The position numbers and the translations under genes were made by a program. A DNA stretch of 64,000 nt from Alphaproteobacteria bacterium MedPE-SWcel (GTDB taxonomy: Bacteria; Pseudomonadota; Alphaproteobacteria; Rhodobacterales; Rhodobacteraceae): positions 1 to 64,000 of the forward strand of contig MPDC01000003.1 of assembly GCA_001874255.1 (NCBI GenBank), read 5' to 3'. Shown in pieces: positions 50,806-64,000 of the stretch; position 1 is the stretch's first letter, and every line of letters begins with the position of its first letter. Under the pieces are notes generated by a model. The model was not told the origin of the DNA. It did not search any database and was given only the letters and a program-made list of their open reading frames with translations.

Positions 50806-50850
50806 AACTATGGAACGGAGGAGAACCCAATGACTGGAGGAGGCATTCGG

Positions 50851-51912
50851 ATGAACACACTCAAGACCTTTGTGGCCGCAGCGGCCCTGAGCCTTGGATC
50901 GGGGGCCATGGCGGTCGCTGATACGACGATATTTTACGGCCACGCCGGCCCGCCGCGCGGCACGGTTCCGGCGGCGCTGAACTGGGTGAACGAACGACTG
51001 GCCGACCTGTCGGACGGCGAAATCAAGATGGACATCCAATGGGGCGGCGCCCTGTTCAAGGCGCCCTCGGCGGTGCAGTCCATCGGCGACGGCGTGGCGG
51101 ATGCAGGCTCCATCATCTCGGCCTATTTCCCCAAGGAAATGGCGGCCTATGCGCTATCGGACCTGCCGCTCGGTGGCCCCGATCCCTGGGTCGGCATGCG
51201 GGCCACGGACCGGATGATGCGCCTGCCGGAGATCAAGCAGCATCTGGCCGCACAGAACCTTGTCTATGTCGGCACCTTCACCGCATCGGATGTGAACGTG
51301 GCCTGCAAGGGCAGCGAGATCAATTCCATCGCCGATATCGCGGGCAAGAAAGTGCGCGGGGCAGGGGTCTATGGCAAGGTGTTTGGCGAGCTGGGCGCAA
51401 CCATGGTGAACCTCTCGGTCTACGAGGCCTATCAGGGGCTCGATACCGGGCTGATCGATTGCACGCAGGGCTATTCCTACATCATCCCGGCGCTGAAATG
51501 GCACGAGCAGATCGACAGCTATACCGTCCTCAACTGGGGGCAGATCGGCGGCTACGGGATGTTCTTCAACAAGCAGATCTTTGACAGCTATCCCGAACCC
51601 GTCAAGGCTGCGCTAATCCAGGTGGGCGAAGAGCTTCCGGACAAATTTGCCCAGATCGTGATCGGTGCGAATGAAAAGGCGCTGAACACCCTGCGCGAGG
51701 GCGGCTATGATCGCCCGATCAAGCTGATCGAAGCAGGCGGCCAGGACGCGGATGCCCTGAATGCGGCGGCGCAGCCGTTCATTGCCGAGTGGAAGGAGAC
51801 CGCGCAGGCGGTGGGTCTCGACCCGGAGGCTCTGATGAAAGTCTACGGCGACGCGGTTGTGGAATACACGGCCGAGCTTGAGGCCGAGGGCTATCCCTGG
51901 CTGCGGGACTGA
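50851..51912 (+). CDS. TRAP transporter substrate-binding protein (DctP family)
   Basis: Periplasmic receptor for the acid probably degraded by the upstream beta-oxidation operon. The ATG at 50851 follows CTGGAGGAGG and gives 353 residues with a clean signal peptide (MNTLKTFVAAAALSLGSGAM, cleavage near AVA-D). An in-frame ATG at 50830, also after a ribosome binding site, would add seven residues. ADIAGKKVRGAGVYGKVFGELG carries the family Arg, and EAYQGLDTGLIDCTQGYSY completes the site. The pocket lacks the usual asparagine-rich pattern of C4-dicarboxylate DctP, so chain length or ring size cannot be judged. Confidence 0.88.
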   Translation: MNTLKTFVAAAALSLGSGAMAVADTTIFYGHAGPPRGTVPAALNWVNERLADLSDGEIKMDIQWGGALFKAPSAVQSIGDGVADAGSIISAYFPKEMAAYALSDLPLGGPDPWVGMRATDRMMRLPEIKQHLAAQNLVYVGTFTASDVNVACKGSEINSIADIAGKKVRGAGVYGKVFGELGATMVNLSVYEAYQGLDTGLIDCTQGYSYIIPALKWHEQIDSYTVLNWGQIGGYGMFFNKQIFDSYPEPVKAALIQVGEELPDKFAQIVIGANEKALNTLREGGYDRPIKLIEAGGQDADALNAAAQPFIAEWKETAQAVGLDPEALMKVYGDAVVEYTAELEAEGYPWLRD

Positions 51913-51929
51913 TACGCCTGAAAACGCGC

Positions 51930-51994
51930 CTGCGCCCCCCGTCGATTGCCGGATCACACCCGGCACATCCCAGGATGAAGGCCGGGGGGCGCAG
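51930..51994 (+). terminator. Nested hairpin after the third TRAP binding-protein gene
   Basis: CTGCGCCCCCCG (51930-51941) pairs perfectly with CGGGGGGCGCAG (51983-51994). Inside the 41-base loop a second hairpin forms from TGCCGG (51947-51952) and CCGGCA (51960-51965). It is the most elaborate of the hairpins that follow binding-protein genes in this window. No T-tract follows, so mRNA protection is more likely than termination. Confidence 0.65.
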
Positions 51995-52032
51995 GATTTC
52001 GAAACGCTGCACCAGAGCGAGGAAAGACAGGC

Positions 52033-52530
52033 ATGCTGAACCGGGTAGAACGGATCTTTGTGGATGTGGCGGCCATGGCCATCATCCTGCTGGGGCTTTT
52101 GATCTTTGCCGATGTGGTGGCGCTGAATGTGTTTGCAGCACCGCTGCCTGATACGATCATCATCGTCCGCGAGCTGATGGTCATTGCCATCGTGTTGCCA
52201 TTGGCGGCGGCCACAGTCAGCCGGGCGCATATCGCGGTGGAGTTCGTGACGAATTTCCTGCCGGCCCGGGTGGTCAACTGGTTTGTGGTCTTTGGCAGCC
52301 TGTTCGCCCTGCTCGCGCTCAGTCCGCTGGTCTATGCGGGCACCAAGGATCTGCTGCATCAATGGCATACCGGCAGCGTTTTCTACGGGGACCTCGGCCT
52401 GCCGCAATGGCCGGGGCGGCTTGCCTTTGTGGTCGGGATCGGCCTCACCTGGGTCCGCTTGCTGGTCATGGTGGTCGCGGATGCGGCGACCGCGATACGC
52501 GGGGGCGAGATCACCTTTGGCGGTCATTGA
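52033..52530 (+). CDS. TRAP transporter small permease (DctQ family)
   Basis: Small membrane subunit of the third TRAP system. The 165-residue protein has four helices: AAMAIILLGLLIFADVVAL, IIIVRELMVIAIVLPLAAAT, WFVVFGSLFALLALSPLVYAG and PGRLAFVVGIGLTWVRLLVM. Its last codons run into a degenerate tandem repeat, so the final residues are probably not functional. dctM follows after a 111-base gap, unlike the overlapping dctQM pairs elsewhere in the window. Confidence 0.85.
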   Translation: MLNRVERIFVDVAAMAIILLGLLIFADVVALNVFAAPLPDTIIIVRELMVIAIVLPLAAATVSRAHIAVEFVTNFLPARVVNWFVVFGSLFALLALSPLVYAGTKDLLHQWHTGSVFYGDLGLPQWPGRLAFVVGIGLTWVRLLVMVVADAATAIRGGEITFGGH

Positions 52531-52588
52531 GAAAGGCCATCCGGGAAAAGGCCATCCGGAAAATGGTCATCTGAACGGTCACTGAAAC
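52522..52588 (+). repeat. Degenerate 12-15-base tandem repeat across the dctQ stop
   Basis: About five units of the form GGYCATYYGRRAAA begin inside the end of dctQ (its TGA lies in unit one) and continue into the dctQ-dctM gap. Units two and three are nearly identical. The repeat accounts for the unusual spacing between dctQ and dctM. Confidence 0.75.
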
Positions 52589-52641
52589 GGGCGCAGGCCG
52601 CCTGAACCTACAACACGATACCGACGGACAGGAAAAACAAT

Positions 52642-53982
52642 ATGGATCCGGCAACTATCGGACTGGTGGCCTTTGGCCTCATGCTCATCCTGCTGGCGAT
52701 GCGGGTGCCGATCGCTTTTGCTCTGATGGGGGTCGCCACGCTTGCGGCATTCACGATCTTTGCGTTCCGCACAGGGACCTTCATGCCCGAACGGGCGCTG
52801 CGGGCAACTGCCTCGATCGTGTTCTCGAATTCCTTTGACCTGATCCACAGTTTCGACCTGTCGATGATCCCGCTGTTCGTGGTGCTCGGCAATATCGCCT
52901 ATCGGGCCGGAATCACGACCGCCGTCTACAACTCCGCCCGGGTCTGGCTGCAGCAACTGCGCGGCGGGGTGGCCATGGCCTCGATCGTTGGCTGTGGCGG
53001 GTTTTCGGCCATCACCGGATCGTCGATCGCCTGCGCCTCGACCATGGGGCGGATTTGCACGCCCGAGATGTTGCGGATGGGATATGACAAACGTCTGGCC
53101 ACAGCCAGCGTTGCGGCCGGCGGCACGATGGGCTCCCTGATCCCGCCCAGCGTGCTGTTCATCGTCTATGCGATCTTTACCGAGACATCGGTCTCCAAGC
53201 TGTTTCTCGCCGGGATTTTGCCCGGATTTCTGACGCTTGTCGGCTTTGTCACCGTGGTGGTGATCTGGTCCGCGGTTGACCCCAAGGTGGCGCCCGTGGC
53301 GGCGCAGCGGGCGACGCGGCGCGAACGCCTGCATGCCGCGCTCGAAGCCTGGCCCGCGATCCTCATTTTCCTGATCGTTGTGGTCGGCATCTATGGCGGG
53401 TTCTTCACCGCAACAGCCGCCGCCGCCGTCGCGGTCGTGGTGACCACGGCCATCGGTTTTGCCCAACGCCGCCTGTCCCTGCGCGACATGTGGGAGGCGG
53501 TGCGCGAGACCTGTGTCCAGTCCACCTCCATCTTTATCGTGGCGGCTGCGGCCAAGATTTTCGTCGCGGCCATCGCGCTGACCGGGCTTGCGCCTGCCTT
53601 GGTGCAGACCGTCTCCGAGGCGCAATTGTCCTTCCCGGTCCTGCTGCTGTGCATCTGCGCGGTCTATCTCGCATTGGGCATGTTCCTCGACCCCATCGGG
53701 ATCATGGTGCTGACCCTGCCGCTCGCGGTGCCGATGGTCGAGGCCTATGGCATGAACCTGATCTGGTTCGGCGTCGTGGTGGTCAAGCTGCTGGAGATCG
53801 GGCTGATCACGCCGCCGGTGGGGCTCAATGTCTTTGTGCTGTCCAATGTTGTCGGGCGCGCGGCCCCCATCGGTGCGATTTTCGCCGGCATCTGGCGGTT
53901 CCTCTGCGCCGATGTGATCGTTTTGGGGCTGATACTGGCCTTTCCGGCGATTTCCCTGATCCTGTCGGAGTCCGTGAAGTGA
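52642..53982 (+). CDS. TRAP transporter large permease (DctM family)
   Basis: Transport subunit of the third TRAP system. The 446-residue protein has LVAFGLMLILLAMRVPIAFALMG, SFDLSMIPLFVVLGNIAYRAGI, GCGGFSAITGSSIACASTMG, MGSLIPPSVLFIVYAIF, GFFTATAAAAVAVVVTT, and LGMFLDPIGIMVLTLPLAVP with VKLLEIGLITPPVGLNVFVL near the end. It starts after ACAGGAAAAAC. The IclR regulator gene follows within about 70 bases. Confidence 0.92.
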   Translation: MDPATIGLVAFGLMLILLAMRVPIAFALMGVATLAAFTIFAFRTGTFMPERALRATASIVFSNSFDLIHSFDLSMIPLFVVLGNIAYRAGITTAVYNSARVWLQQLRGGVAMASIVGCGGFSAITGSSIACASTMGRICTPEMLRMGYDKRLATASVAAGGTMGSLIPPSVLFIVYAIFTETSVSKLFLAGILPGFLTLVGFVTVVVIWSAVDPKVAPVAAQRATRRERLHAALEAWPAILIFLIVVVGIYGGFFTATAAAAVAVVVTTAIGFAQRRLSLRDMWEAVRETCVQSTSIFIVAAAAKIFVAAIALTGLAPALVQTVSEAQLSFPVLLLCICAVYLALGMFLDPIGIMVLTLPLAVPMVEAYGMNLIWFGVVVVKLLEIGLITPPVGLNVFVLSNVVGRAAPIGAIFAGIWRFLCADVIVLGLILAFPAISLILSESVK

Positions 53983-54052
53983 AGGTGCTTTTCTTTCCGC
54001 GGGAAACCCCGGTATGATGCCGCCTCCGAATGCAGCAACCGGACGGAAGACA

Positions 54053-54847
54053 ATGCGCGAGCTTGAGCAGGACCGGCGATACGCCAATACCCTTGCCCGT
54101 GGGCTGCGCATCCTGCGGGCCTTTCGCCCCTCCGACAATGGGCTCGGCAATCTCGAGATCTCGCAGCGCACCGGCATTCCACGCTCGACGGTGTCACGGC
54201 TGACCTTCACCCTCTGCGCCTTGGGCTATCTGACCCACGGGCGGCATTTCGACAAATATCGTCTGGGGCCAGCAGCGCTGGCTCTGGGAAATATCGCCTC
54301 GGCGGCCTTTGGGTTTGTCACGGTTGCCTCGCCCCTGATGCAGAAACTGGCCGACGAGGTGGACGCCCTGGTCGGCGTGGCGATCCAGGACGACGGCAAT
54401 ATGCTGATCGTCAAGACCTGGCGCCCGGCGAAATCCCATACGATCTGGCTGGATGTGGGCTATCGGATGCCGGTGCTGACCTCCTCTTCCGGGATCGCCT
54501 ATCTCGGGGCCTTGTCGCGCGAAGAACGGGAACGGCTGGAAACCTTGATGCCCGAAGATGCAGCCGCTGCCTGCGCCGAGGTCTGGTCACGGGAGCGGTC
54601 GCAACTGCGCCGCGACGGCTATGCCTTTGTACAGGGGGAGGCCCGCTATTCCAGATCGATCAACGCGGTGGCAACGCCCTTTCACCCCTCTGAAATCGGC
54701 GAGCCGGTGTCGTTCTTCTGTGGCGCGAATGTCGACGACCTCAGCGACCTGCGGATCCGCGAACAGGTCGGACCCGCCTTGGTGCGGGCGGTCAACAGCC
54801 TCAAGGCGCTGACCGGACAAGCGGTGTCGGCCGTATCCTCGGGCTGA
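54053..54847 (+). CDS. IclR-family transcriptional regulator
   Basis: Probable regulator of the third TRAP operon and possibly the beta-oxidation genes. The 264-residue reading starts at the ATG at 54053; an ATG at 54014 is in frame and would add 13 residues. The N-terminal winged helix contains LARGLRILRAFRPSDNGLGNLEISQRTGIPRSTVSRLTFTL, spread over residues ~12-52, and LTHGRHFDKYRLGP forms the wing. The IclR effector domain follows (VASPLMQKLADEVDALVGVAIQ, VLTSSSGIAYLGALSREE, YSRSINAVATPFHP). The effector is probably the imported acid or its CoA ester. Confidence 0.88.
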   Translation: MRELEQDRRYANTLARGLRILRAFRPSDNGLGNLEISQRTGIPRSTVSRLTFTLCALGYLTHGRHFDKYRLGPAALALGNIASAAFGFVTVASPLMQKLADEVDALVGVAIQDDGNMLIVKTWRPAKSHTIWLDVGYRMPVLTSSSGIAYLGALSREERERLETLMPEDAAAACAEVWSRERSQLRRDGYAFVQGEARYSRSINAVATPFHPSEIGEPVSFFCGANVDDLSDLRIREQVGPALVRAVNSLKALTGQAVSAVSSG

Positions 54848-55648: not shown

Positions 55649-55862
55649 GCCACAGACGCTGCGGGCGTTGCACAACCGCCCGTGTTTTGCGTTTCGCGGG
55701 CGTGACAGACGCAGGCGACATCAGGATCTGCTGCAAAGCGGGGGCGTTTCGCGCGGGCAGGGCTTGACCTGCGCCGCATGAGCCTGTTTGACCACTGGCA
55801 AATGACAACCTGAGCATCGGGGTCGCGGGACCTTTCGGGTGCGTCGCTCTGGAGGGGCAAAG

Positions 55863-56825
55863 ATGTGGAATCTCATCGCCGATGTGGGCGGGACCAATAT
55901 GCGGCTTGCGGCCGTGAATGCCGAGGGCGAGATCCTTGAGCAGTCGCGCTATGACACCAAGGGCACGCTGAACCTGGAACAGGCCTGCGCCGATTTTGCC
56001 GCCCATCGGGGCAGCGCTCCCGGTCGCGCCGTCATTGCGGCCGCCGGTGTGGTGCGGGGGGGCTCTGTACAGCTGACCAATGCGCATCAGAATTTTTCCG
56101 AACGGGGCATTGCGTCATCGCTGAAGATCGAACGCGCCAAGGTGCTGAATGATTTCGAGGCCGCCGCCTGGTCGCTCGCCTCGGTCGGGCAGGGCGATGT
56201 GACGGTACTGCAGGGGCAGGCGGTGTTTCCCAAGGAGCCCTGTCTGATCATCGGCCCCGGCACCGGGCTGGGCGTCGGGGCGCTGGTCTGGACCAATGGC
56301 GAGCCCTGTGTCGTGCCGGGCGAGGGCGGCCACGTGGCATTGGGACCACGCACGCCGGAAGAAGTCCCGATCTTCGAAGCGCTGCGTGCGGAATGGCCGG
56401 AGGTCGGCATGGGGCCGGGTCTGGTGGTCGAAGCGGAGGCGATCCTGTCCGGCACGGGGCTGCCGGTCTTCTACCGGGCGGTGGCCAAAAGCATGGATCT
56501 GACGGCGCCCCTGACCACGGGCGCGGAGATTTTCGAATCCGCCAAGGCGCGGCTCGACACCGCGGCGGTGCGCAGCGTTGCATTGTTTGCGCAATATCTC
56601 GCCGGAGTCGCGGGTGACCTCGGCCTCGTCTTCGCGGCCAAGGGCGGCGTGTTCGTGACGGGCGGCGTGGCAGCCGCGAACCCCTGGATCTTTGATCAGG
56701 CCTTTGTCGATGCGTTCAATGCGGGGGGGCGCCATACGGCCTGGCGCCGGGAACTGCCGCTGCATCTCTACCACCAGCCGAACTTTGGCCTGATCGGCGC
56801 GCGCAACTATCTGGCCGCGCGCTGA
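55863..56825 (+). CDS. glk: Glucokinase
   Basis: Phosphorylates glucose to glucose 6-phosphate with ATP. The 320-residue protein from the ATG at 55863, after GGAGGGGC, has the phosphate-binding loop IADVGGTNMRLAAVN, the catalytic Asp97 in VLNDFEAAAW, GPGTGLGVGALVW and GEGGHVALGPRTPEEVPIFE. It is a non-ROK glucokinase of the proteobacterial Glk family. It stands beside genes whose predicted end product is free glucose (monooxygenase and aldo/keto reductase at 58883-60927), which would explain its place here. It could equally be a general housekeeping gene. Confidence 0.9.
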   Translation: MWNLIADVGGTNMRLAAVNAEGEILEQSRYDTKGTLNLEQACADFAAHRGSAPGRAVIAAAGVVRGGSVQLTNAHQNFSERGIASSLKIERAKVLNDFEAAAWSLASVGQGDVTVLQGQAVFPKEPCLIIGPGTGLGVGALVWTNGEPCVVPGEGGHVALGPRTPEEVPIFEALRAEWPEVGMGPGLVVEAEAILSGTGLPVFYRAVAKSMDLTAPLTTGAEIFESAKARLDTAAVRSVALFAQYLAGVAGDLGLVFAAKGGVFVTGGVAAANPWIFDQAFVDAFNAGGRHTAWRRELPLHLYHQPNFGLIGARNYLAAR

Positions 56826-56928
56826 CCGGTCCCGCCCCGGTCCATCGTTCACACGTCCAACGCCCAGACGTGCAAATCCGACGAGGCGGCCGTCCCACAG
56901 GGCGGCCGCGCGGGGCCATATGTCGGGG

Positions 56929-58035
56929 CTAGAGCAGCTCGGCGAGGTCCACGGCCCGGTGTTCCGTCATGGATCGCTGCGCGGCCATCCCCATCAGAAC
57001 CGCCATCCTGCCGTCCTCGAGTGAGACCTCGGGCTGCGCGCGCTGGCCCCGGACCATCTCGAGAAACCCCCGGTGCTGGTAGAAAGTGGAGCCATTGTGG
57101 TCTCCGGCCTCCAGCAGCGTCGGGTCGACGGGGATGTCGCGCACCTGCGGCCCCTGCGGCGCGCGCGGGGAGACCACGACCTGCGGCACCGGCGCCGCGC
57201 CCAGATGGGCAGGCCAGAACCGCCCTGGTCCCGGCACATGCGCCTCGATCTTGCCCTTGGGGCCCACCGCCGAAATCTCCTCCTGGTAGCGGGATCCTTC
57301 GGCGAACATGCACAGCTCCAGCATCGCGCGGGCGCCATTGGCGAAATCCACGATCACATAGCCATTGTCAAATATATCCGGCGTCTCGCCTTCGTATGTC
57401 TCGTCCAGATGGTTCACATCCATGCCGCCGGAGGCCAGCACCCGCAGCGGTTCGGATTTCAGCGCCAACCGCATGAGGTCAAAGAAATGGCAGCATTTCT
57501 CGACAAAGGTGCCGCCGGTGAACCGGTTGAACCGGTTCCAGTCCCCGACCTTTTCGAGAAACGGAAAGCGGTGTTCGCGGATGGTGAGCATCCGAATGCC
57601 ACCGGTGGCGGCCTCGGCCTCGGTCAGCAGGGTCGCGACCGGCGGCATGTATCGGTATTCCATCGCCACCCAGACCGGGGCCGGATAGGCGGCGCGAAAG
57701 GCGTCGAGCCTGGCAAGATGCGCCGCATCGGTGAACAGAGGTTTTTCCACCAGCACCGGCAGCGGGCGGGTGGCGGCCAGCGCCTCCAGCTGCTCCACAT
57801 GGCGGAAATTCGGGCTGGCGATGAGAATGCAGTCGAGGTCTTCGACGGCCAACAGCGCCTCGACGCTGTTCACCAATTTCGCTCCGGGGGCAAAGGTCAG
57901 GCTGTCTGCGGCCATTTGGGCGTCCGGTTCAAAGATCGCCGAAACACGGGTCCCCTCAAGCAGCGCGATATTGCGCAGATGTTCCTGCCCCATCATGCCG
58001 CAGCCGATGATGCCGTAGTGGATGATATCTGACAC
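56929..58035 (-). CDS. Gfo/Idh/MocA-family NAD-binding protein, candidate NAD-dependent sulfoquinovosidase
   Basis: The 368-residue protein has a Rossmann start with GIIGCGMMGQEH (GCGMMG at 11-16), the family EKP at 97-99, and the C-terminal domain block REHRFPFLEKVGDWNRFNR. It also has EKCCHFFDLMR with His183 and Asp186. Most relatives are sugar dehydrogenases. The superfamily also contains NAD-dependent glycosidases that work by transient oxidation, including the sulfoquinovosidases classed as GH188. With the monooxygenase, aldo/keto reductase and flavin reductase next door and no GH31 enzyme visible, release of sulfoquinovose from its glycosides is a plausible job. A plain sugar dehydrogenase is the alternative. 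Co-transcribed with the GntR gene 12 bases upstream. Confidence 0.75.
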   Translation of the reverse strand: MSDIIHYGIIGCGMMGQEHLRNIALLEGTRVSAIFEPDAQMAADSLTFAPGAKLVNSVEALLAVEDLDCILIASPNFRHVEQLEALAATRPLPVLVEKPLFTDAAHLARLDAFRAAYPAPVWVAMEYRYMPPVATLLTEAEAATGGIRMLTIREHRFPFLEKVGDWNRFNRFTGGTFVEKCCHFFDLMRLALKSEPLRVLASGGMDVNHLDETYEGETPDIFDNGYVIVDFANGARAMLELCMFAEGSRYQEEISAVGPKGKIEAHVPGPGRFWPAHLGAAPVPQVVVSPRAPQGPQVRDIPVDPTLLEAGDHNGSTFYQHRGFLEMVRGQRAQPEVSLEDGRMAVLMGMAAQRSMTEHRAVDLAELL

Positions 58036-58047
58036 GGGTCTTCTCCC

Positions 58048-58770
58048 TTAAATCAGGCGCTGCACATAAAGCGCCTTGTCTGTGTCGAACCAGGTTCTTG
58101 AAAACTCGACCGGGGCCGGGTCCTGTGCCCAGCTGAGGCGCTCGATAAATCCGGTGAGCGTGCCCGGCGACAGGCCAAAGCCCGGCGGCGCCCAATCGGG
58201 AACGGCCGCGACCGAGACCCGGTCTTCGGCGCGCGCGATGATCAGGCCCAGTTGCAGCTGATAGGTGCGATAGAGCGAATCCGACATCTGCTGGGGTCTG
58301 ATTTCCCCCGCTGCCCCATCAAGCCAGATCTCTTCGACGGCGACGGGCAGGCGGTTCAGATAGCGCAGCCGGCGAATGCGGGTGCCGTGATCGGCCGTGC
58401 CGAAGCGGGGCAGATCCGCCGGTTTTGGCACCACGGCCAGGTCAAGAATATCCGCCGTCGGCAAGCCCCCGCCGGTGGTCAGCTCCAGCCGGAACATGGA
58501 GTAGACGCTCGGCGCAGAATGCTTGGCCCGGATGTAGTTTCCCGACCCCTGCACGCGCTCCAGCATGCCCTTTTTTTCAAGCTCCGACAGGGCCTTGCGC
58601 AGGGTGCGCACGGTGGTTCCGTGGCTCTTTGCCAGCTCCCGCTCAGGGGCCAGCCGCTGTCCGTCCACCAGCCGTCCGGCCGCAATCTCGCGGATCAGGA
58701 ATTCGCTGATCTGCATATAGATCGGCAGCGCCGTCGGGGTGTCGCGATCAAGGTCATGTATCGGGGTCAT
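58048..58770 (-). CDS. GntR-family (HutC/UTRA) transcriptional regulator
   Basis: Probable local repressor of the divergent monooxygenase operon and of its own transcript. The 240-residue reading from the ATG at 58770 has a winged helix (YMQISEFLIREIAAGRLVDGQRLAPERELAKSHGTTVRTLRKALSELEKKG, over residues ~18-68). A UTRA ligand domain follows, ending in GFGLSPGTLTGFIERLSWAQ and EFSRTWFDTDKALYV. UTRA domains often bind sugars or sugar phosphates, which fits a sugar-sulfonate or glucose-derived effector. The frame is open to 58821, but the extra N-terminus is not family-like. Confidence 0.87.
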   Translation of the reverse strand: MTPIHDLDRDTPTALPIYMQISEFLIREIAAGRLVDGQRLAPERELAKSHGTTVRTLRKALSELEKKGMLERVQGSGNYIRAKHSAPSVYSMFRLELTTGGGLPTADILDLAVVPKPADLPRFGTADHGTRIRRLRYLNRLPVAVEEIWLDGAAGEIRPQQMSDSLYRTYQLQLGLIIARAEDRVSVAAVPDWAPPGFGLSPGTLTGFIERLSWAQDPAPVEFSRTWFDTDKALYVQRLI

Positions 58771-58808
58771 GCAAGGGCCGGCTGCGGGAGGGAAGGGAGG
58801 CGAAAATA

Positions 58809-58829
58809 ATTGATGCACCATTGATGTAC
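58809..58829. promoter_or_regulatory. Direct-repeat operator candidate between the GntR and monooxygenase genes
   Basis: ATTGATGCAC (58809-58818) and ATTGATGTAC (58820-58829) are near-identical decamers one base apart, centred between the divergent starts. TTGATG can serve as a -35 for the plus strand. An 11-base periodicity places both copies on one face of the helix, as expected for a dimeric regulator. Confidence 0.5.
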
Positions 58830-58882
58830 TTTAAATCTGCTGCTACGCAAGAGGAAATTCGATCGCTCTGCAGGAGACAGAA

Positions 58883-60037
58883 ATGACCGTAGTCCCCATC
58901 ACCTCTCCGGATCTGGATGCCGCCGAAGTGTCGTGGTTTTCGGCTCTCTGCTCGGACGATTATCAGTTTCTCGGGGTGCCGGACGGGGATCTGCGGTCGT
59001 CCTGGGCGCATTGTTCCGAGATCGTGAAAACCGCCGAAGAGCAGGGGTTCCGCAATATCCTGTGCCCGTCATCCTATCAGGTCGGGCAGGATACCCTGTC
59101 CTTCGTTGCGGGCTGCGCGCCGATCACGTCAAAGATCAACATGCTCGCGGCGGTGCGCTGCGGCGAGATGCAGCCGATCATGCTGGCCCGGACCATTGCG
59201 ACGCTGGATCACATGCTGGAGGGGCGGCTGACGGTCAATATCATCTCCTCGGATTTTCCCGGCGAAACCGCGGCCAGTGACTATCGCTACCAGCGATCGC
59301 GCGAGGTGGTGGAGATCCTCAAACAGGCCTGGACCCGGGATGAGATCACCCACAAGGGCGAGGTCTACAGTTTCGAAGGGCTCACTGCTGATCCGGCCAG
59401 GCCCTATCAGACCGGCGGGCCGCTGCTGTATTTTGGTGGCTACTCGCCCTCGGCGCTGGAACTCTGCGGCGAGCATTGCGATGTCTATCTGATGTGGCCG
59501 GAAAAGATGGCAGAGCTGGAAGGCCGGATGCGGGCCGTGCATGCCGTCGCCGGGACATACAACCGCACCCTGGATTACGGCCTGCGGGTGCATGTCATCG
59601 TCCGCGACACCGAGGCCGAGGCGCGCGAATATGCGCAATATCTGGTCTCCAAACTCGACGATGAACAGGGCAGCACGATCCGGGATCGTGCGCTGGATGC
59701 CAAATCGCTCGGGGTCAGCCACCAGGCCCGGAACCGCGAGATCGCCGATGACGACGGCTTCATCGAACCGAACCTGTGGACCGGAGTGGGGCGGGCGCGG
59801 TCGGGCTGCGGGGCGGCGCTGGTCGGCTCCACCGATCAGGTGCTGAGCAAGCTGGAGGCCTATCAGAAAATGGGCATCCGCGCTTTCATCCTGTCAGGCT
59901 ATCCGCATATTGACGAGGCCCGGCATTTTGGCACCCGCATTTTGCCCAATATGAAAACCTGCTCGCTGCCGGAAGCCTATGGCCGGGTCCCCGCGAGCAC
60001 ACCGCAAACGCCGCTTGGCGTAGGAGTTCGCCGCTAA
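58883..60037 (+). CDS. FMNH2-dependent sulfonate monooxygenase, SmoC/SsuD-like (probable sulfoquinovose monooxygenase)
   Basis: Two-component luciferase-fold enzyme that cleaves a carbon-sulfur bond with O2 and reduced flavin, releasing sulfite. The 384-residue protein keeps the SsuD sulfonate-site pattern: DVYLMWPEKMAE (Trp205), DYGLRVHVIVRDT (Arg235, His237), NLWTGVGRARSGCGAALVGS (Arg304/306) and LSGYPHIDEARHFG (Tyr340). The following genes encode an aldo/keto reductase and a flavin reductase. That set is the sulfo-SMO pathway known in Agrobacterium, in which SmoC turns sulfoquinovose into 6-oxoglucose. A general alkanesulfonate monooxygenase would not need the reductase. Its stop shares a base with the next start (TAATG). 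Confidence 0.82.
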   Translation: MTVVPITSPDLDAAEVSWFSALCSDDYQFLGVPDGDLRSSWAHCSEIVKTAEEQGFRNILCPSSYQVGQDTLSFVAGCAPITSKINMLAAVRCGEMQPIMLARTIATLDHMLEGRLTVNIISSDFPGETAASDYRYQRSREVVEILKQAWTRDEITHKGEVYSFEGLTADPARPYQTGGPLLYFGGYSPSALELCGEHCDVYLMWPEKMAELEGRMRAVHAVAGTYNRTLDYGLRVHVIVRDTEAEAREYAQYLVSKLDDEQGSTIRDRALDAKSLGVSHQARNREIADDDGFIEPNLWTGVGRARSGCGAALVGSTDQVLSKLEAYQKMGIRAFILSGYPHIDEARHFGTRILPNMKTCSLPEAYGRVPASTPQTPLGVGVRR

Positions 60038-60927
60038 TGGACCGTATCAAACTCAACGACGACCTTGATTTTTCCCGCCTGATCTACGGCATGTGGCGGA
60101 TCGGGGATGACAGCGACACCTCGGTCAAACATGTGGAGGCCAAGATCGAAGCCTGCCTTGAACAGGGCATCACCACCTTTGATCAGGCGGATATCTACGG
60201 CGACTACGGCGCAGAGGCGATCCTTGGCGCCGCATTGAAGGCCAGCCCGGCCCTGCGCGACCGGATGGAGATCGTGACCAAATGCGATATCGTGGCGCCG
60301 ATCGGGCGCTATGCGCATAAGCCGGTCAAATATTACGACACCTCGCGGGCCCATATCGAGCACTCGGTCGAGACCTCCCTGCGCGAGATGGCGATCGAAC
60401 AGATCGACCTGCTGCTGATCCACCGCCCGGACCCTTTGATGGATCATCTGGAAACCGGTGCGGCGCTGGATGATCTGGTCCGATCCGGCAAGGTCAAATC
60501 CGTTGGCGTGTCGAATTTCCGCCCCTGGGACTGGGACTTGCTGCAATCGGGGATGACCACGCAACTGGCCACCAACCAGATCGAGCTGTCCCTCTCCGAG
60601 CTGTCGCCCTTCACCAATGGCGACCTGGCATTCCATCAGAAAAAGGGCCAGCCGATCATGGCGTGGTCGCCCCTGGGCGGCGGCAGCCTGATGACGGCCG
60701 ACAGCGATCTGAGCGCGCTGATGGATCAGATCGCGGCGGCACAGGGCGTGGACCGCGCCGCGGTGGCGGTGGCCTTCCTGCTGCGGCACCCGGCGCAGAT
60801 CCTGCCGGTTCTGGGCACCAACACTCTGACGCGGATCTCGGCGATCTCGGATGCGCTGAAGGTCGAGCTGGACCGGGAAACCTGGTTCAGCCTCTATCAG
60901 ACCGCATTGGGTCACGAGGTGCCATGA
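60037..60927 (+). CDS. Aldo/keto reductase, SmoB-like (probable 6-oxoglucose reductase)
   Basis: NADPH-dependent reductase expected to convert 6-oxoglucose, the product of the upstream monooxygenase, to glucose. The 296-residue protein has the full catalytic tetrad: Asp49 and Tyr54 in TTFDQADIYGDYG, Lys82 in IVTKCDIV and His129 in DLLLIHRPDP. SVGVSNFRPWDWDLL, AWSPLGGGSLM and the cofactor segment ILPVLGTNTLTRIS are also present. It belongs to the YdhF-like branch of the AKR family. The start overlaps the monooxygenase stop by one base, strong evidence for a shared pathway. It could have another aldehyde substrate if the upstream enzyme does. Confidence 0.83.
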   Translation: MDRIKLNDDLDFSRLIYGMWRIGDDSDTSVKHVEAKIEACLEQGITTFDQADIYGDYGAEAILGAALKASPALRDRMEIVTKCDIVAPIGRYAHKPVKYYDTSRAHIEHSVETSLREMAIEQIDLLLIHRPDPLMDHLETGAALDDLVRSGKVKSVGVSNFRPWDWDLLQSGMTTQLATNQIELSLSELSPFTNGDLAFHQKKGQPIMAWSPLGGGSLMTADSDLSALMDQIAAAQGVDRAAVAVAFLLRHPAQILPVLGTNTLTRISAISDALKVELDRETWFSLYQTALGHEVP

Positions 60928-60940
60928 CATGGGGCTGCAG

Positions 60941-61450
60941 ATGAGCGACAAGAGCTTTCAGGCCTTCGTTCCGGATGAGAGCAACACCCGGTTGCTGCGC
61001 GACGCCTTTGGCCGCTTTGCCACCGGGATCACCATTGTGACCGCCGCCACAGCCGAGGGCGTCGTGGCCATCACCGCCAGCAGTTTTTCCTCGGTATCGC
61101 TGACGCCGCCGATGGTGCTGTGGTCGCCGGACCGCAATTCCCGGCGGTTTCCGCATTTCGAGCGCGCAGACCACTACGCGATCCATGTTCTGGCGGCGGA
61201 ACAGGACGATCTGTGTTTCCGGGTCGCAAAGGACGCAGGCGGGTTGCGGGGGCTGGATCTGGCTTGCAACGCCGAAGGCGTGCCGGTGCTCGACGGGTGT
61301 CTGGCGCGGTTCGAATGCAGCCGCCGCGCGGTATACGACGGAGGAGACCATGCCATTGTGCTGGGCGTCGTGAACCGGGCCGAAATGCGCGACGGCGGCG
61401 AGGCGCTCACCTTTTTCAAGGGGCAGCTGGGACGAATTTCCGCGCATTGA
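60941..61450 (+). CDS. Flavin reductase, SmoA-like partner of the monooxygenase
   Basis: Supplies reduced FMN to the two-component monooxygenase, using NAD(P)H. The 169-residue protein has the flavin-reductase-like split-barrel fold: RDAFGRFATGITIVTA, GVVAITASSFSSVSLTPPMVLW, HYAIHVLAAEQDDLCFRVAK and GGDHAIVLGVVNRAEM. It resembles HpaC and SmoA. It lies 13 bases after the aldo/keto reductase. A start at 60929 would add four residues; 60941 is preceded by a weak GGGGCTGCAG. It ends the enzyme part of the operon, and the TRAP genes begin 60 bases later. Confidence 0.85.
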   Translation: MSDKSFQAFVPDESNTRLLRDAFGRFATGITIVTAATAEGVVAITASSFSSVSLTPPMVLWSPDRNSRRFPHFERADHYAIHVLAAEQDDLCFRVAKDAGGLRGLDLACNAEGVPVLDGCLARFECSRRAVYDGGDHAIVLGVVNRAEMRDGGEALTFFKGQLGRISAH

Positions 61451-61510
61451 TCCGCGCAGGGTGCAGCGCCCGAGGGACGCCTCGGGATGTCTGCGTGAGG
61501 GAGGACTGAC

Positions 61511-62101
61511 ATGAAGGCTTTGATGGCGGTGGTGACACCGCTGTACTGGATCAACGCGACCCTGCTGCGCCTCGGGCGCTGGCTGGGCTGTGCCGCCGTG
61601 GCTGCCATGGTGGTGGCCATCCTCATTCAGGTGTTCTGTCGCTATGTGTTGAACAACGCGCTGCCCTGGCCCGATGAAGCGGCCCGCTTCTGCATGCTGT
61701 GGATGACGGGGCTGATGGCGCCCACGGCCTTCCGGCAGGGTGGTTTTGTGGCCATTGACACCCTCTCGGCGCTGCTCCCGGCCCGGCTGGGCAGCGCGCT
61801 GTCGCTGCTGCTGCTGTGTCTCAGCCTGCTGGTCCTGATCGTCGCCATTCAGATCGGCTACTCCGAAGTCACCGGCATCGGGGGCCGCTTCACCACCGCC
61901 TCGCTCTATGTTCCGACGTCGCTGGGCTTTGACAGCTGGTATCGTGTGCCACGCAGCTGGATGATGATGTCGCTGCTGGTCGGGATCGCCCTGTTGATCC
62001 TCGTCAATGCAGAGCTGATCCTGCACCGTCTTGTCGCCCTCCTCGGGGGCGGCGACCGGCTGCCGGAAATCCGATACGCCACTGCCGAAGGGGCCGAGTG
62101 A
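61511..62101 (+). CDS. TRAP transporter small permease (DctQ family)
   Basis: Small membrane subunit of the fourth TRAP system. The 196-residue protein has a short cytoplasmic start and four helices: LGCAAVAAMVVAILIQVFCRY, ARFCMLWMTGLMAPTAFRQG, LGSALSLLLLCLSLLVLIVAI and RSWMMMSLLVGIALLILVN. CRYVLNNALPWPDEAARF is the family landmark. It comes first here, with the order Q-M-P rather than the P-Q-M order of the other three TRAP operons. The stop overlaps the dctM start by one base (TGATG). It follows the monooxygenase, reductase and flavin reductase genes directly. Confidence 0.87.
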   Translation: MKALMAVVTPLYWINATLLRLGRWLGCAAVAAMVVAILIQVFCRYVLNNALPWPDEAARFCMLWMTGLMAPTAFRQGGFVAIDTLSALLPARLGSALSLLLLCLSLLVLIVAIQIGYSEVTGIGGRFTTASLYVPTSLGFDSWYRVPRSWMMMSLLVGIALLILVNAELILHRLVALLGGGDRLPEIRYATAEGAE

Positions 62102-63390
62102 TGCTGATCTGGTTTCTGCCACTGTTCCTCGTCTTCCTGATGATCGGCTTGCCGGTCTTCTTCGGCCTGCTGGCCGCGCCCGGTCTGCTGTTGTGGCTGA
62201 ACGGGCAGGAGCGCGACCTGACGCTGCTCTACCGCAACCTCTACAATGGCATGGACAGTTTTCCGCTGATGGCGATCCCCTTCTTCATGCTGGCGGGCGA
62301 GCTGATGAACAAAGGCGGCATCACGCTGCGTCTGGTCGAGTTCAGCCAGGCGCTGATGGGGCATCTGCGGGGCGGTCTGGCGCATGTGAATGTCTTGTCA
62401 TCGATGCTGTTTGCCGGGCTTTCGGGCTCTGCCGTGGCGGATACGTCGGCGCTTGGATCGATGCTGATCCCGGCGATGGAGAAACAAGGCTACACGCGCC
62501 GGTTTGCCGCCGCCATCACCGCCGCCAGTTCGGTGATCGGCCCGATCATCCCTCCGTCGGGCATCATGATCATCTATGCCTATGTCATGGGCGAAAGCGT
62601 CGCGGCCCTGTTTCTGGCGGGGCTGGTGCCCGGTATCCTGGTCGGTGTCGGGCTGATGCTGATGGTCAAGGTGATGGCCGACCGCTACGATTTTCCGGTG
62701 GCGTCGCGTCGCTATACCTGGGGCGAACGGGGCCAGGCCAGTCTCAAGGCCTTCTTTCCGCTGATGACCCCCGTGATCATTCTCGGCGGCATCCTGCTGG
62801 GCGTCTTCACCCCCACCGAGGCGGCGGCCGTGGCCGTGGCCTATGCGTTGATCATCGGCTTCTTCGTTCTGCGTACGCTGACGGTGGCGGAACTGCCCGA
62901 TATCCTGACCCGCGCGGGCATCACCTCTGCAGTGGTGCTGCTGCTGGTCGGGGCGGCGATGTCGTTCAAGACGGTGGTATCGCTCAGCCACGCCCCCGAA
63001 CATCTGGCCGAGTTCATCCTGACGCTGACCGAAAACCCGCTGCTGCTGCTGTTCCTGATCAACCTGCTGTTGTTTGGCGTGGGAATGTTTCTGGACGCGG
63101 GCCCGGCCATCATCATCCTCGGGCCGATCCTGGGGCCGGTGTTCATCGGGCTCGGCGTCGATCCGGTGCATTTCGCCATCATCATGTGCGTGAACCTCAC
63201 GGTTGGCCTGGCGACCCCGCCGATGGGGCTGGTCCTGTTCGTGGCCTCGGCGGTGTCGGGCGAACGCGTCACCACAATCGCCCGTGCGATCCTGCCGTTT
63301 CTCGCGGTGGAGATCCTGGTGATCTTTCTGATCACCTACGTCCCGGCGATTTCCATGACGATCCCGCGTCTGACCGGGTTCGTGAATTGA
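62101..63390 (+). CDS. TRAP transporter large permease (DctM family)
   Basis: Transport subunit of the fourth TRAP system. From the ATG at 62101 it has 429 residues, with a GTG one codon upstream. It contains IWFLPLFLVFLMIGLPVFFGLL, FPLMAIPFFMLAGELMNKGG, FAGLSGSAVADTSALGSML, GPIIPPSGIMIIYAYVMG, TPTEAAAVAVAYALI, GMFLDAGPAIIILGPILGPVF and NLTVGLATPPMGLVLFVASAVSG. All DctM landmarks are present. Its place in a desulfurisation operon suggests uptake of a sulfonated sugar or its glycerol glycoside. If so, this would be an unusual substrate class for a TRAP transporter. Confidence 0.9.
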   Translation: MLIWFLPLFLVFLMIGLPVFFGLLAAPGLLLWLNGQERDLTLLYRNLYNGMDSFPLMAIPFFMLAGELMNKGGITLRLVEFSQALMGHLRGGLAHVNVLSSMLFAGLSGSAVADTSALGSMLIPAMEKQGYTRRFAAAITAASSVIGPIIPPSGIMIIYAYVMGESVAALFLAGLVPGILVGVGLMLMVKVMADRYDFPVASRRYTWGERGQASLKAFFPLMTPVIILGGILLGVFTPTEAAAVAVAYALIIGFFVLRTLTVAELPDILTRAGITSAVVLLLVGAAMSFKTVVSLSHAPEHLAEFILTLTENPLLLLFLINLLLFGVGMFLDAGPAIIILGPILGPVFIGLGVDPVHFAIIMCVNLTVGLATPPMGLVLFVASAVSGERVTTIARAILPFLAVEILVIFLITYVPAISMTIPRLTGFVN

Positions 63391-63426
63391 TTTGACCAAT
63401 ACCAAGAGCACCAGGGAGGAAACCAT

Positions 63427-64000
63427 ATGCTCAAGAACGTCATGAAATCCGTCGCCGTTGCGGCGCTTTTGGCCGGGACCGCGCTCTCGGCATCTGCCGC
63501 CGATTACACCATTCGCGCGACGGCCAACTCCAATGAAAATGACGAGGATTACGACGGCCTCGTGGTCTTCAAGAACTACGTCGAGGCGGCCTCCAACGGG
63601 GCCATCGAGGTGGAGCTGTTCATTGGCACCCAACTGTGCTCGAACGGCGCGGAATGCCTGCAGGGCGTGGCCGATGGCTCGATCGATGTCTATATCTCCA
63701 CGTCGGGCGGTGCCTCCGGGCTGTTCCCTTACGTGCAGGTCCTCGATCTGCCCTATCTGATGGCCGACGACCGGGTCGCGGAACATGTGCTGTCGGGCGA
63801 TTTCACCCGCACCGTCCGCGACATGGCGCTGGAGGATTCCGGCGGCACAATCCGGCTGATGACCATCGGCAACACCGGCGGCTGGCGGAACTTTGCCAAT
63901 ACCAAACGCCGCGTGGCAGAGCCTGCCGATATGGAGGGGCTGAAGATCCGCACCGTGGTCGCAGACCTGCCGCAGGAACTGGTCAAGGCGCTTGGCGCAT
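63427..64000 (+). CDS. TRAP transporter substrate-binding protein (DctP family), cut by the window end
   Basis: Periplasmic receptor for the fourth TRAP system; 191 residues are visible. It follows CAGGGAGGAAACC and starts MLKNVMKSVAVAALLAGTAL, a signal peptide cleaved near ASA-AD. The first lobe contains ANSNENDEDYDGLVVFKNYV and NGAECLQGVADGSIDVYIST, and the substrate region begins at ADMEGLKIRTVVADLPQELV with the family Arg. The two cysteines CSNGAEC could form a small disulfide loop. The second lobe, which completes the pocket, is outside the window, so substrate cannot be read from it. Confidence 0.9.
   Translation, partial: MLKNVMKSVAVAALLAGTALSASAADYTIRATANSNENDEDYDGLVVFKNYVEAASNGAIEVELFIGTQLCSNGAECLQGVADGSIDVYISTSGGASGLFPYVQVLDLPYLMADDRVAEHVLSGDFTRTVRDMALEDSGGTIRLMTIGNTGGWRNFANTKRRVAEPADMEGLKIRTVVADLPQELVKALGA

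Follow-up and report, generated by a model that had tools for sequence, protein, structure and literature searches.

The window very probably carries a Roseobacter-type sulfo-SMO cluster

The window, i.e., the whole stretch of 64,000 nucleotides that was analysed, carries at its end what is, judging from the sequence, very probably a Roseobacter-type sulfo-SMO cluster with all the expected parts. A preliminary description of this DNA had proposed a probable sulfo-SMO locus, and the proposal is borne out by the best matches of SmoC and SmoB, by the placement of SmoC on the SmoC side of a phylogenetic tree, and by a neighbouring GH188 gene. In excerpts of the published work, the pathway is described as C-S bond cleavage to sulfite and 6-dehydroglucose, followed by formation of glucose (PMC12890257, PMC9594981), and the sulfo-SMO pathway, the GH188 enzymes and the occurrence of the two together in Roseobacter bacteria have already been published (PMC10755693, PMC11465081, PMC13372026, PMC12890257, PMC9594981). 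The pathway itself is known; the parts worth testing are the importer variant (TRAP) and the operator. The features of the locus are as follows.

56929-58035, minus strand: sqgA-type GH188 NAD+-dependent sulfoquinovosidase (Gfo/Idh/MocA fold; PDB matches)
58048-58821, minus strand: GntR/UTRA (HutC-type) regulator, named SmoR here (PF00392 and PF07702)
58810-58829, plus strand: predicted SmoR operator TTGATGCACCATTGATGTAC (0 mismatches; tandem half-sites 11 bp apart)
58821-58849, plus strand: predicted smo promoter, by eye (-35 TTGATG at 58821-58826, 17 nt, -10 TACGCA at 58844-58849)
58883-60037, plus strand: smoC, FMNH2-dependent sulfoquinovose monooxygenase (PDB matches, tree, residues)
60037-60927, plus strand: smoB, aldo/keto reductase converting 6-dehydroglucose to glucose (408.8 bits to PDB 7bby)
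60941-61450, plus strand: smoA, flavin reductase (PF01613; second in-frame ATG at 60929)
61511-62101, plus strand: TRAP small permease DctQ (PF04290)
62098-63390, plus strand: TRAP large permease DctM (PF06808, TIGR00786)
63427-64000, onward to contig base C23:64485, plus strand: TRAP solute-binding protein DctP (PF03480)

When the list of open reading frames was re-checked, the positions of SmoC, SmoB and SmoA stood as first given, and so did the view of a near-single translation unit (the smoC stop and the smoB start share one base, TAATG). The presence of a GntR/UTRA regulator beside the smo genes was likewise upheld by its two Pfam domains; by eye, its true start is probably 58770. The dctP gene is complete on the continued contig (L003), with its end beyond the window. 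Further along stand genes for an FCD-type GntR regulator and, 1.2 kb from the end of dctP, for an exporter of the TauE family (PF01925, 167.1 bits). Next come a ROK-type regulator and an ABC set named by eye as sugar-type, and then eda and edd, so that Entner-Doudoroff genes share a contig with the smo cluster. An Rfam scan of 56000-64000 found no family. A second TRAP set, recognised by eye, lies with an IclR-type regulator at 50830-54847 of the window, with genes for a DUF1868 2H-phosphoesterase and for glucokinase downstream; it looks like a separate unit.

SmoC and SmoB group with sulfoquinovose enzymes

In a comparison with characterised proteins, which had been suggested as a check, SmoC and SmoB each scored far higher against their solved counterparts than against other families. 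SmoC scored 692.8 bits against PDB 7olf and 672.9 against 7oh2, versus 183.4 against E. coli SsuD; the two chains are titled methanesulfonate sulfonatase and alkanesulfonate monooxygenase, respectively, and we take both to be SmoC structures. SmoB scored 408.8 bits against 7bby, titled aryl-alcohol dehydrogenase and presumably a SmoB structure, and 206.7 against the next family (7twz, YdhF). The sulfonate-site residues were rightly described as kept: R235, H237, R306, Y340 and H342 of SmoC align to SsuD R226, H228, R297, Y331 and H333. We assume these SsuD residues, together with C54, to be active-site positions; C54 has no kept counterpart in SmoC in the alignment. The full catalytic tetrad ascribed to the reductase was also found (D49, Y54, K82, H129, which we take to be the tetrad positions of aldo/keto reductases). 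For SmoA, the top NCBIfam match was FerA (190.8 bits, below the cut-off of 260), and no chain titled SmoA was among its PDB matches; family and position would fit a putative dedicated flavin reductase of the pathway. An excerpt of PMC13372026 defines sulfo-SMO by SmoB and SmoC inside a 10-ORF window, and here the two genes are adjacent.

The SmoC tree comprised 116 rows, namely the window, the 80 nearest named loci, 31 other loci, plasmid-borne ones included, and four typed PDB chains. It was built by a quick method with SH-aLRT support and no bootstrap, and several long branches were flagged. A branch with 99% SH-aLRT support separates SmoC, together with deeper-branching relatives (L092-L103, L114), from SsuD, MsuD and L104-L112. 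Placement of the monooxygenase within SsuD, named beforehand as the outcome that would speak against sulfo-SMO, is ruled out by this split, as SmoC falls on the SmoC side. The two solved SmoC chains form a near sister group, and the closest row, among the best 80 of 552 relatives and the others, is that of Phaeobacter sp. B1627 (93%). It is thus hardly credible that the locus serves general sulfur scavenging from alkanesulfonates by an SsuD/SsuE-like system: although SmoC and SsuD are both members of one luciferase-like family (33.6% identity over 354 columns) and its top NCBIfam match is the alkanesulfonate monooxygenase model (235.8 bits against a cut-off of 518.2), the bit scores favour the SmoC chains, the 99% branch lies in between, and GH188 and SmoB stand beside SmoC.

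The GH188 sulfoquinovosidase is the strongest supporting gene

The gene that lends the strongest support to a sulfo-SMO cluster had no part in the reasoning of the preliminary description. The protein encoded at 56929-58035 has a Gfo/Idh NAD-binding fold, and its closest kin are solved GH188 enzymes: it scored 553.1 bits against PDB 8zn9 (titled oxidoreductase, putative), 368.9 against 8qc3 and 363.6 against 8qc2, the next match being at 58.8. According to the consulted part of PMC10755693, 8QC2 is FlSqgA and 8QC3 is ArSqgA. Identity to ArSqgA was 50.1% over 357 columns, with K97, Y126, R155, L159, K161, E178, H182 and H312 retained, so that, of the nine active-site residues which the paper lists for ArSqgA, eight are identical here at one offset. 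At that offset, the position listed as Glu163 is occupied by Val in ArSqgA itself and by Arg in the present protein, with Glu one residue later in both; this position counts against the match. The sulfonate contacts listed in the same source (Arg166, Lys172 and the backbone of Leu170; PMC10755693) are all three retained in the alignment. Hence, another sulfosugar, or a sulfoquinovoside of a different kind, is a very improbable substrate in place of sulfoquinovose (SQ). Sequence alone gives no substrate, and a TRAP importer stands where other clusters carry an ABC importer; against this, the three contacts are kept, and SmoC and SmoB are closest to SQ enzymes. The organism's own genome also encodes a GH31 enzyme (G000:C14:12923-13915, L261), which was rejected as the sulfoquinovosidase, scoring 261.9 bits against alpha-glucosidases and 95.3 against the sulfoquinovosidase YihQ.

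The cluster, and in most cases its TRAP transporter, is kept in close relatives

We examined the surroundings of smoC, within 8.5 kb, in the best 80 of 552 confirmed SmoC relatives; since the sample was drawn in this way, the fractions are valid for near kin only, and some flanks are shortened by contig ends. A GntR gene was near SmoC in 80/80 of these loci, and GH188, SmoB and SmoA in 78/80 each, so the core layout of the window is that of nearly all 80 relatives. A YeiH exporter was found in 23 of the best 80 loci, TauE in 4 and glucokinase in 3. The glucokinase (55839-56825) is a neighbour of the cluster, yet lies beyond the stretch 56929-64000 to which the preliminary description applied; it had been counted as evidence for sulfo-SMO, and this argument is weak, because presence near SmoC in 3/80 loci makes it a matter of local synteny. 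We also rejected glucokinase as a member of the system, both for this rarity and because no copy of the operator precedes it even when two mismatches are allowed. Both the glucokinase and the TauE neighbours are lineage-local in this sample. On the annotated megaplasmid of Ruegeria sp. TM1040 the genes stand in the same order, with TRAP and a sulfate-exporter gene.

L047 has smoC next to GntR, together with the operator; smoB, smoA and GH188 all gave no match up to 10 kb away. In L140 (genome G424), an exact operator is followed by smoB and smoA, GH188 and GntR are present, and no smoC match was found in the usual place; perhaps another desulfonating enzyme acts there, or the cluster has decayed.

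The TRAP set is complete, with DctP, DctQ and DctM all recognised. Against 25 orthologues, hand-picked from 57 usable TRAP loci, DctP showed 69-92% identity, with a mean column identity of 84% (26 rows). Its structure model, of moderate confidence (pLDDT 75.6), has the fold of a TRAP binding protein, with 4p47, 4p8b and the isethionate-binding IseP among the top fold matches. IseP (PDB 8t9t), which ranked third, is a TRAP binding protein whose ligand is a sulfonate; DctP is 24% identical to it over the match. Since the nearest folds bind varied ligands (isethionate, sialate and others), the model does not fix the ligand of DctP. Among the best 80 of 552 loci, TRAP DctPQM was near SmoC in 59 and an ABC set in 9; neither importer was seen in 8, one of which (L032) has DctQ alone, and a further 4 were cut by a contig end. 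No locus exceeded both thresholds, L034 having an ABC binding protein with a weak, unrelated TRAP match. When the labels TRAP, ABC, PDB SmoC and SsuD-MsuD were placed on the SmoC tree, 4 changes were needed versus 12.6 in shuffles, so importer type tracks descent with few swaps.

Synteny and conservation together suggest that DctPQM carries SQ or its glyceride. It is unlikely that the TRAP set is a passenger for some other anion while SQ enters by another route. Such a reading would fit the varied ligands of the nearest solved proteins and the 8/80 loci with no TRAP or ABC set in the stretch covered; what speaks against it is that one or the other set is present in 68 of the best 80 of 552 loci, never both above threshold, and that the ABC binding protein of L028 had no match in the organism's own genome, in a search run without a positive control. 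For SQ uptake, PMC12421959 names ABC importers and their binding proteins. In the partly covered literature we found no TRAP importer or operator for sulfo-SMO, and an earlier report is possible.

A near-invariant predicted operator overlaps the predicted smo promoter

The gap between the GntR gene and SmoC holds a predicted operator/promoter element, TTGATNNACNATTGATNNAC, in 80/80 loci (best 80 of 552) at no more than one mismatch. When up to two mismatches are allowed, its copy at 58810-58829, TTGATGCACCATTGATGTAC, is the only one in the window, with 0.10 expected. Less than 200 nt from SmoC, the operator was exact in 58/80 loci and had one mismatch in 20/80 (best 80 of 552); L032 and L033 have exact copies further upstream than that. 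As a control, 400 stretches of 200 nt were drawn at random from these loci; 4 held an exact match, maybe the same sites, and the rest had at least 3 mismatches. The core consists of two ATTGATNNAC half-sites 11 bp apart. By eye, the second half-site overlaps a -35-like TTGATY, with TAYGCA 17 nt later; in this -10 element T is kept in 76/76 and A in 75/76 of the loci that could be stacked (76 of 80). SmoR probably represses transcription by binding over the smo promoter.

At up to one mismatch, the pattern occurs in 57 of 120 family genomes, and a reversed-pattern control in 1 of 120. Those 57 genomes hold 75 sites, of which 6 were left out and 69 have a known context. Behind 46/69 of them stands SmoC (42), SmoB (1), GH188 (1), an ABC binding protein (1) or yeiH (1); the other 23/69 lie elsewhere. 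Four of these 23 are exact: one lies in a divergent SmoA-GntR gap (L160), and three (L127, L143, L144) have no smo gene within the 3 kb examined. Exact matches therefore do arise elsewhere, and these three may reflect chance, another regulator or unknown SQ genes. In genome G494, where the cluster is split, operator copies precede both the detached GH188 and the detached ABC binding protein (L152, L153). The TauE gene past dctP was rejected as an operator target, as no site was found at up to two mismatches (L003).

A weaker copy of the predicted operator precedes a distant yeiH gene

The organism's own genome holds a single other site at up to one mismatch, at C8:25840, 93 nt before a YeiH-family exporter (PF03601, TIGR00698). 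After yeiH come molybdopterin, iron-sulfur and DmsC-type subunits, which we take to be SoeABC. The surrounding region (G000:C8:16000-35900, L151) is a taurine/sulfoacetaldehyde-type locus with a MocR-type regulator, Xsc, a TauE-family gene, AckA, YeiH and the SoeABC-like subunits. This YeiH, at 69% identity or more, is found in 12 of 41 genomes. A site with 1-3 mismatches precedes it in the own genome and in G502, G506, G508, G511, G512 and G516, the latter six being of the same genus; all seven have smoC. In six of the seven, soeA follows yeiH, and in G502 the contig ends there. The site and a ATTGTTTCACCTTG island stand out amid otherwise diverged sequence in these seven genomes.

In the remaining 5/12 (G504, G514, G517, G391, G510) the site is absent. 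G504 and G514 carry smoC as well as yeiH-soeA, and no exporter was seen in the 20 kb around their smoC; they count against a simple rule. In G517 and G391, where the MocR-type regulator, Xsc and YeiH are all kept, smoC has no orthologue, and G510 carries a second YeiH on its smoC contig. Since no soeA was found beside yeiH in G517, G391 and G510, the comparison of site with smoC is confounded.

A weaker operator copy before yeiH hints that one regulator ties sulfite release to disposal, and a role of SmoR at this site is possible. We put forward, tentatively, that SmoR reads SQ and controls both the smo-TRAP operon and the distant yeiH-soeABC operon through one type of operator. There is about an even chance that the site belongs to another regulator, e.g., the MocR-type regulator of that locus, or reflects a lineage effect, with SmoR uninvolved. 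This would suit the weakness of the site (1-3 mismatches), its position in a locus of the xsc/taurine type that encodes a MocR-type regulator of its own, and its absence from G504 and G514; in G517, G391 and G510, the missing site may simply reflect a different locus. On the other side, all seven genomes with the site carry smoC, and G517 and G391, which lack smoC, do not have the site although they keep the MocR-type regulator, Xsc and YeiH.

Proposed pathway and relation to known systems

For the Roseobacter-type sulfo-SMO cluster, we infer the enzymatic steps, the TRAP cargo and the ligand and action of SmoR as follows. DctPQM would import SQ or sulfoquinovosyl glycerol, and GH188 would free SQ from its glycoside by transient NAD+-dependent oxidation at C3. 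With FMNH2 supplied by SmoA, SmoC would use O2 to cut the C-S bond, giving sulfite and 6-dehydroglucose, which SmoB would reduce to glucose; this could then enter the Entner-Doudoroff route encoded farther on in the same contig. SmoR would probably repress at the operator and dissociate on binding SQ or a product. Sulfite may exit through the TauE-family exporter past dctP, and perhaps also through the yeiH-soeABC operon on another contig.

The sulfo-SMO system of Agrobacterium comprises SmoI, SmoEFGH and SmoABC, with a GH31 sulfoquinovosidase and an ABC importer. It shares with the window the association of SmoC, SmoB and a flavin reductase, and differs from it in having GH31 where GH188 stands here and ABC where TRAP stands here. 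SsuDE belongs to the same family of two-component FMNH2 monooxygenases and has active-site residues in common, but forms a separate clade, and SmoB and GH188 are extra here. Roseobacter sulfo-SMO clusters with GH188 were reportedly described by Liu et al. in 2023, and the enzymes of such clusters are no different from those of the window. In the portion covered here, Kaur et al. 2023 report GH188 from nearly all sulfo-SMO clusters of marine Roseobacter bacteria and mention neither TRAP nor an operator (PMC10755693).

Roseobacter bacteria are reported consumers of SQ, a sulfur-containing sugar of plants and algae whose production is put at about 10 billion tons a year in PMC10755693. The cluster, its importer and the near-invariant operator form a searchable signature for SQ use, by which detached genes may be found too. 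Carriage of the sugar by TRAP can now be tested, and so can the way in which cells couple sulfite release to disposal. If SmoR does control both units, sulfite from the sugar would be exported and oxidised as it is released.
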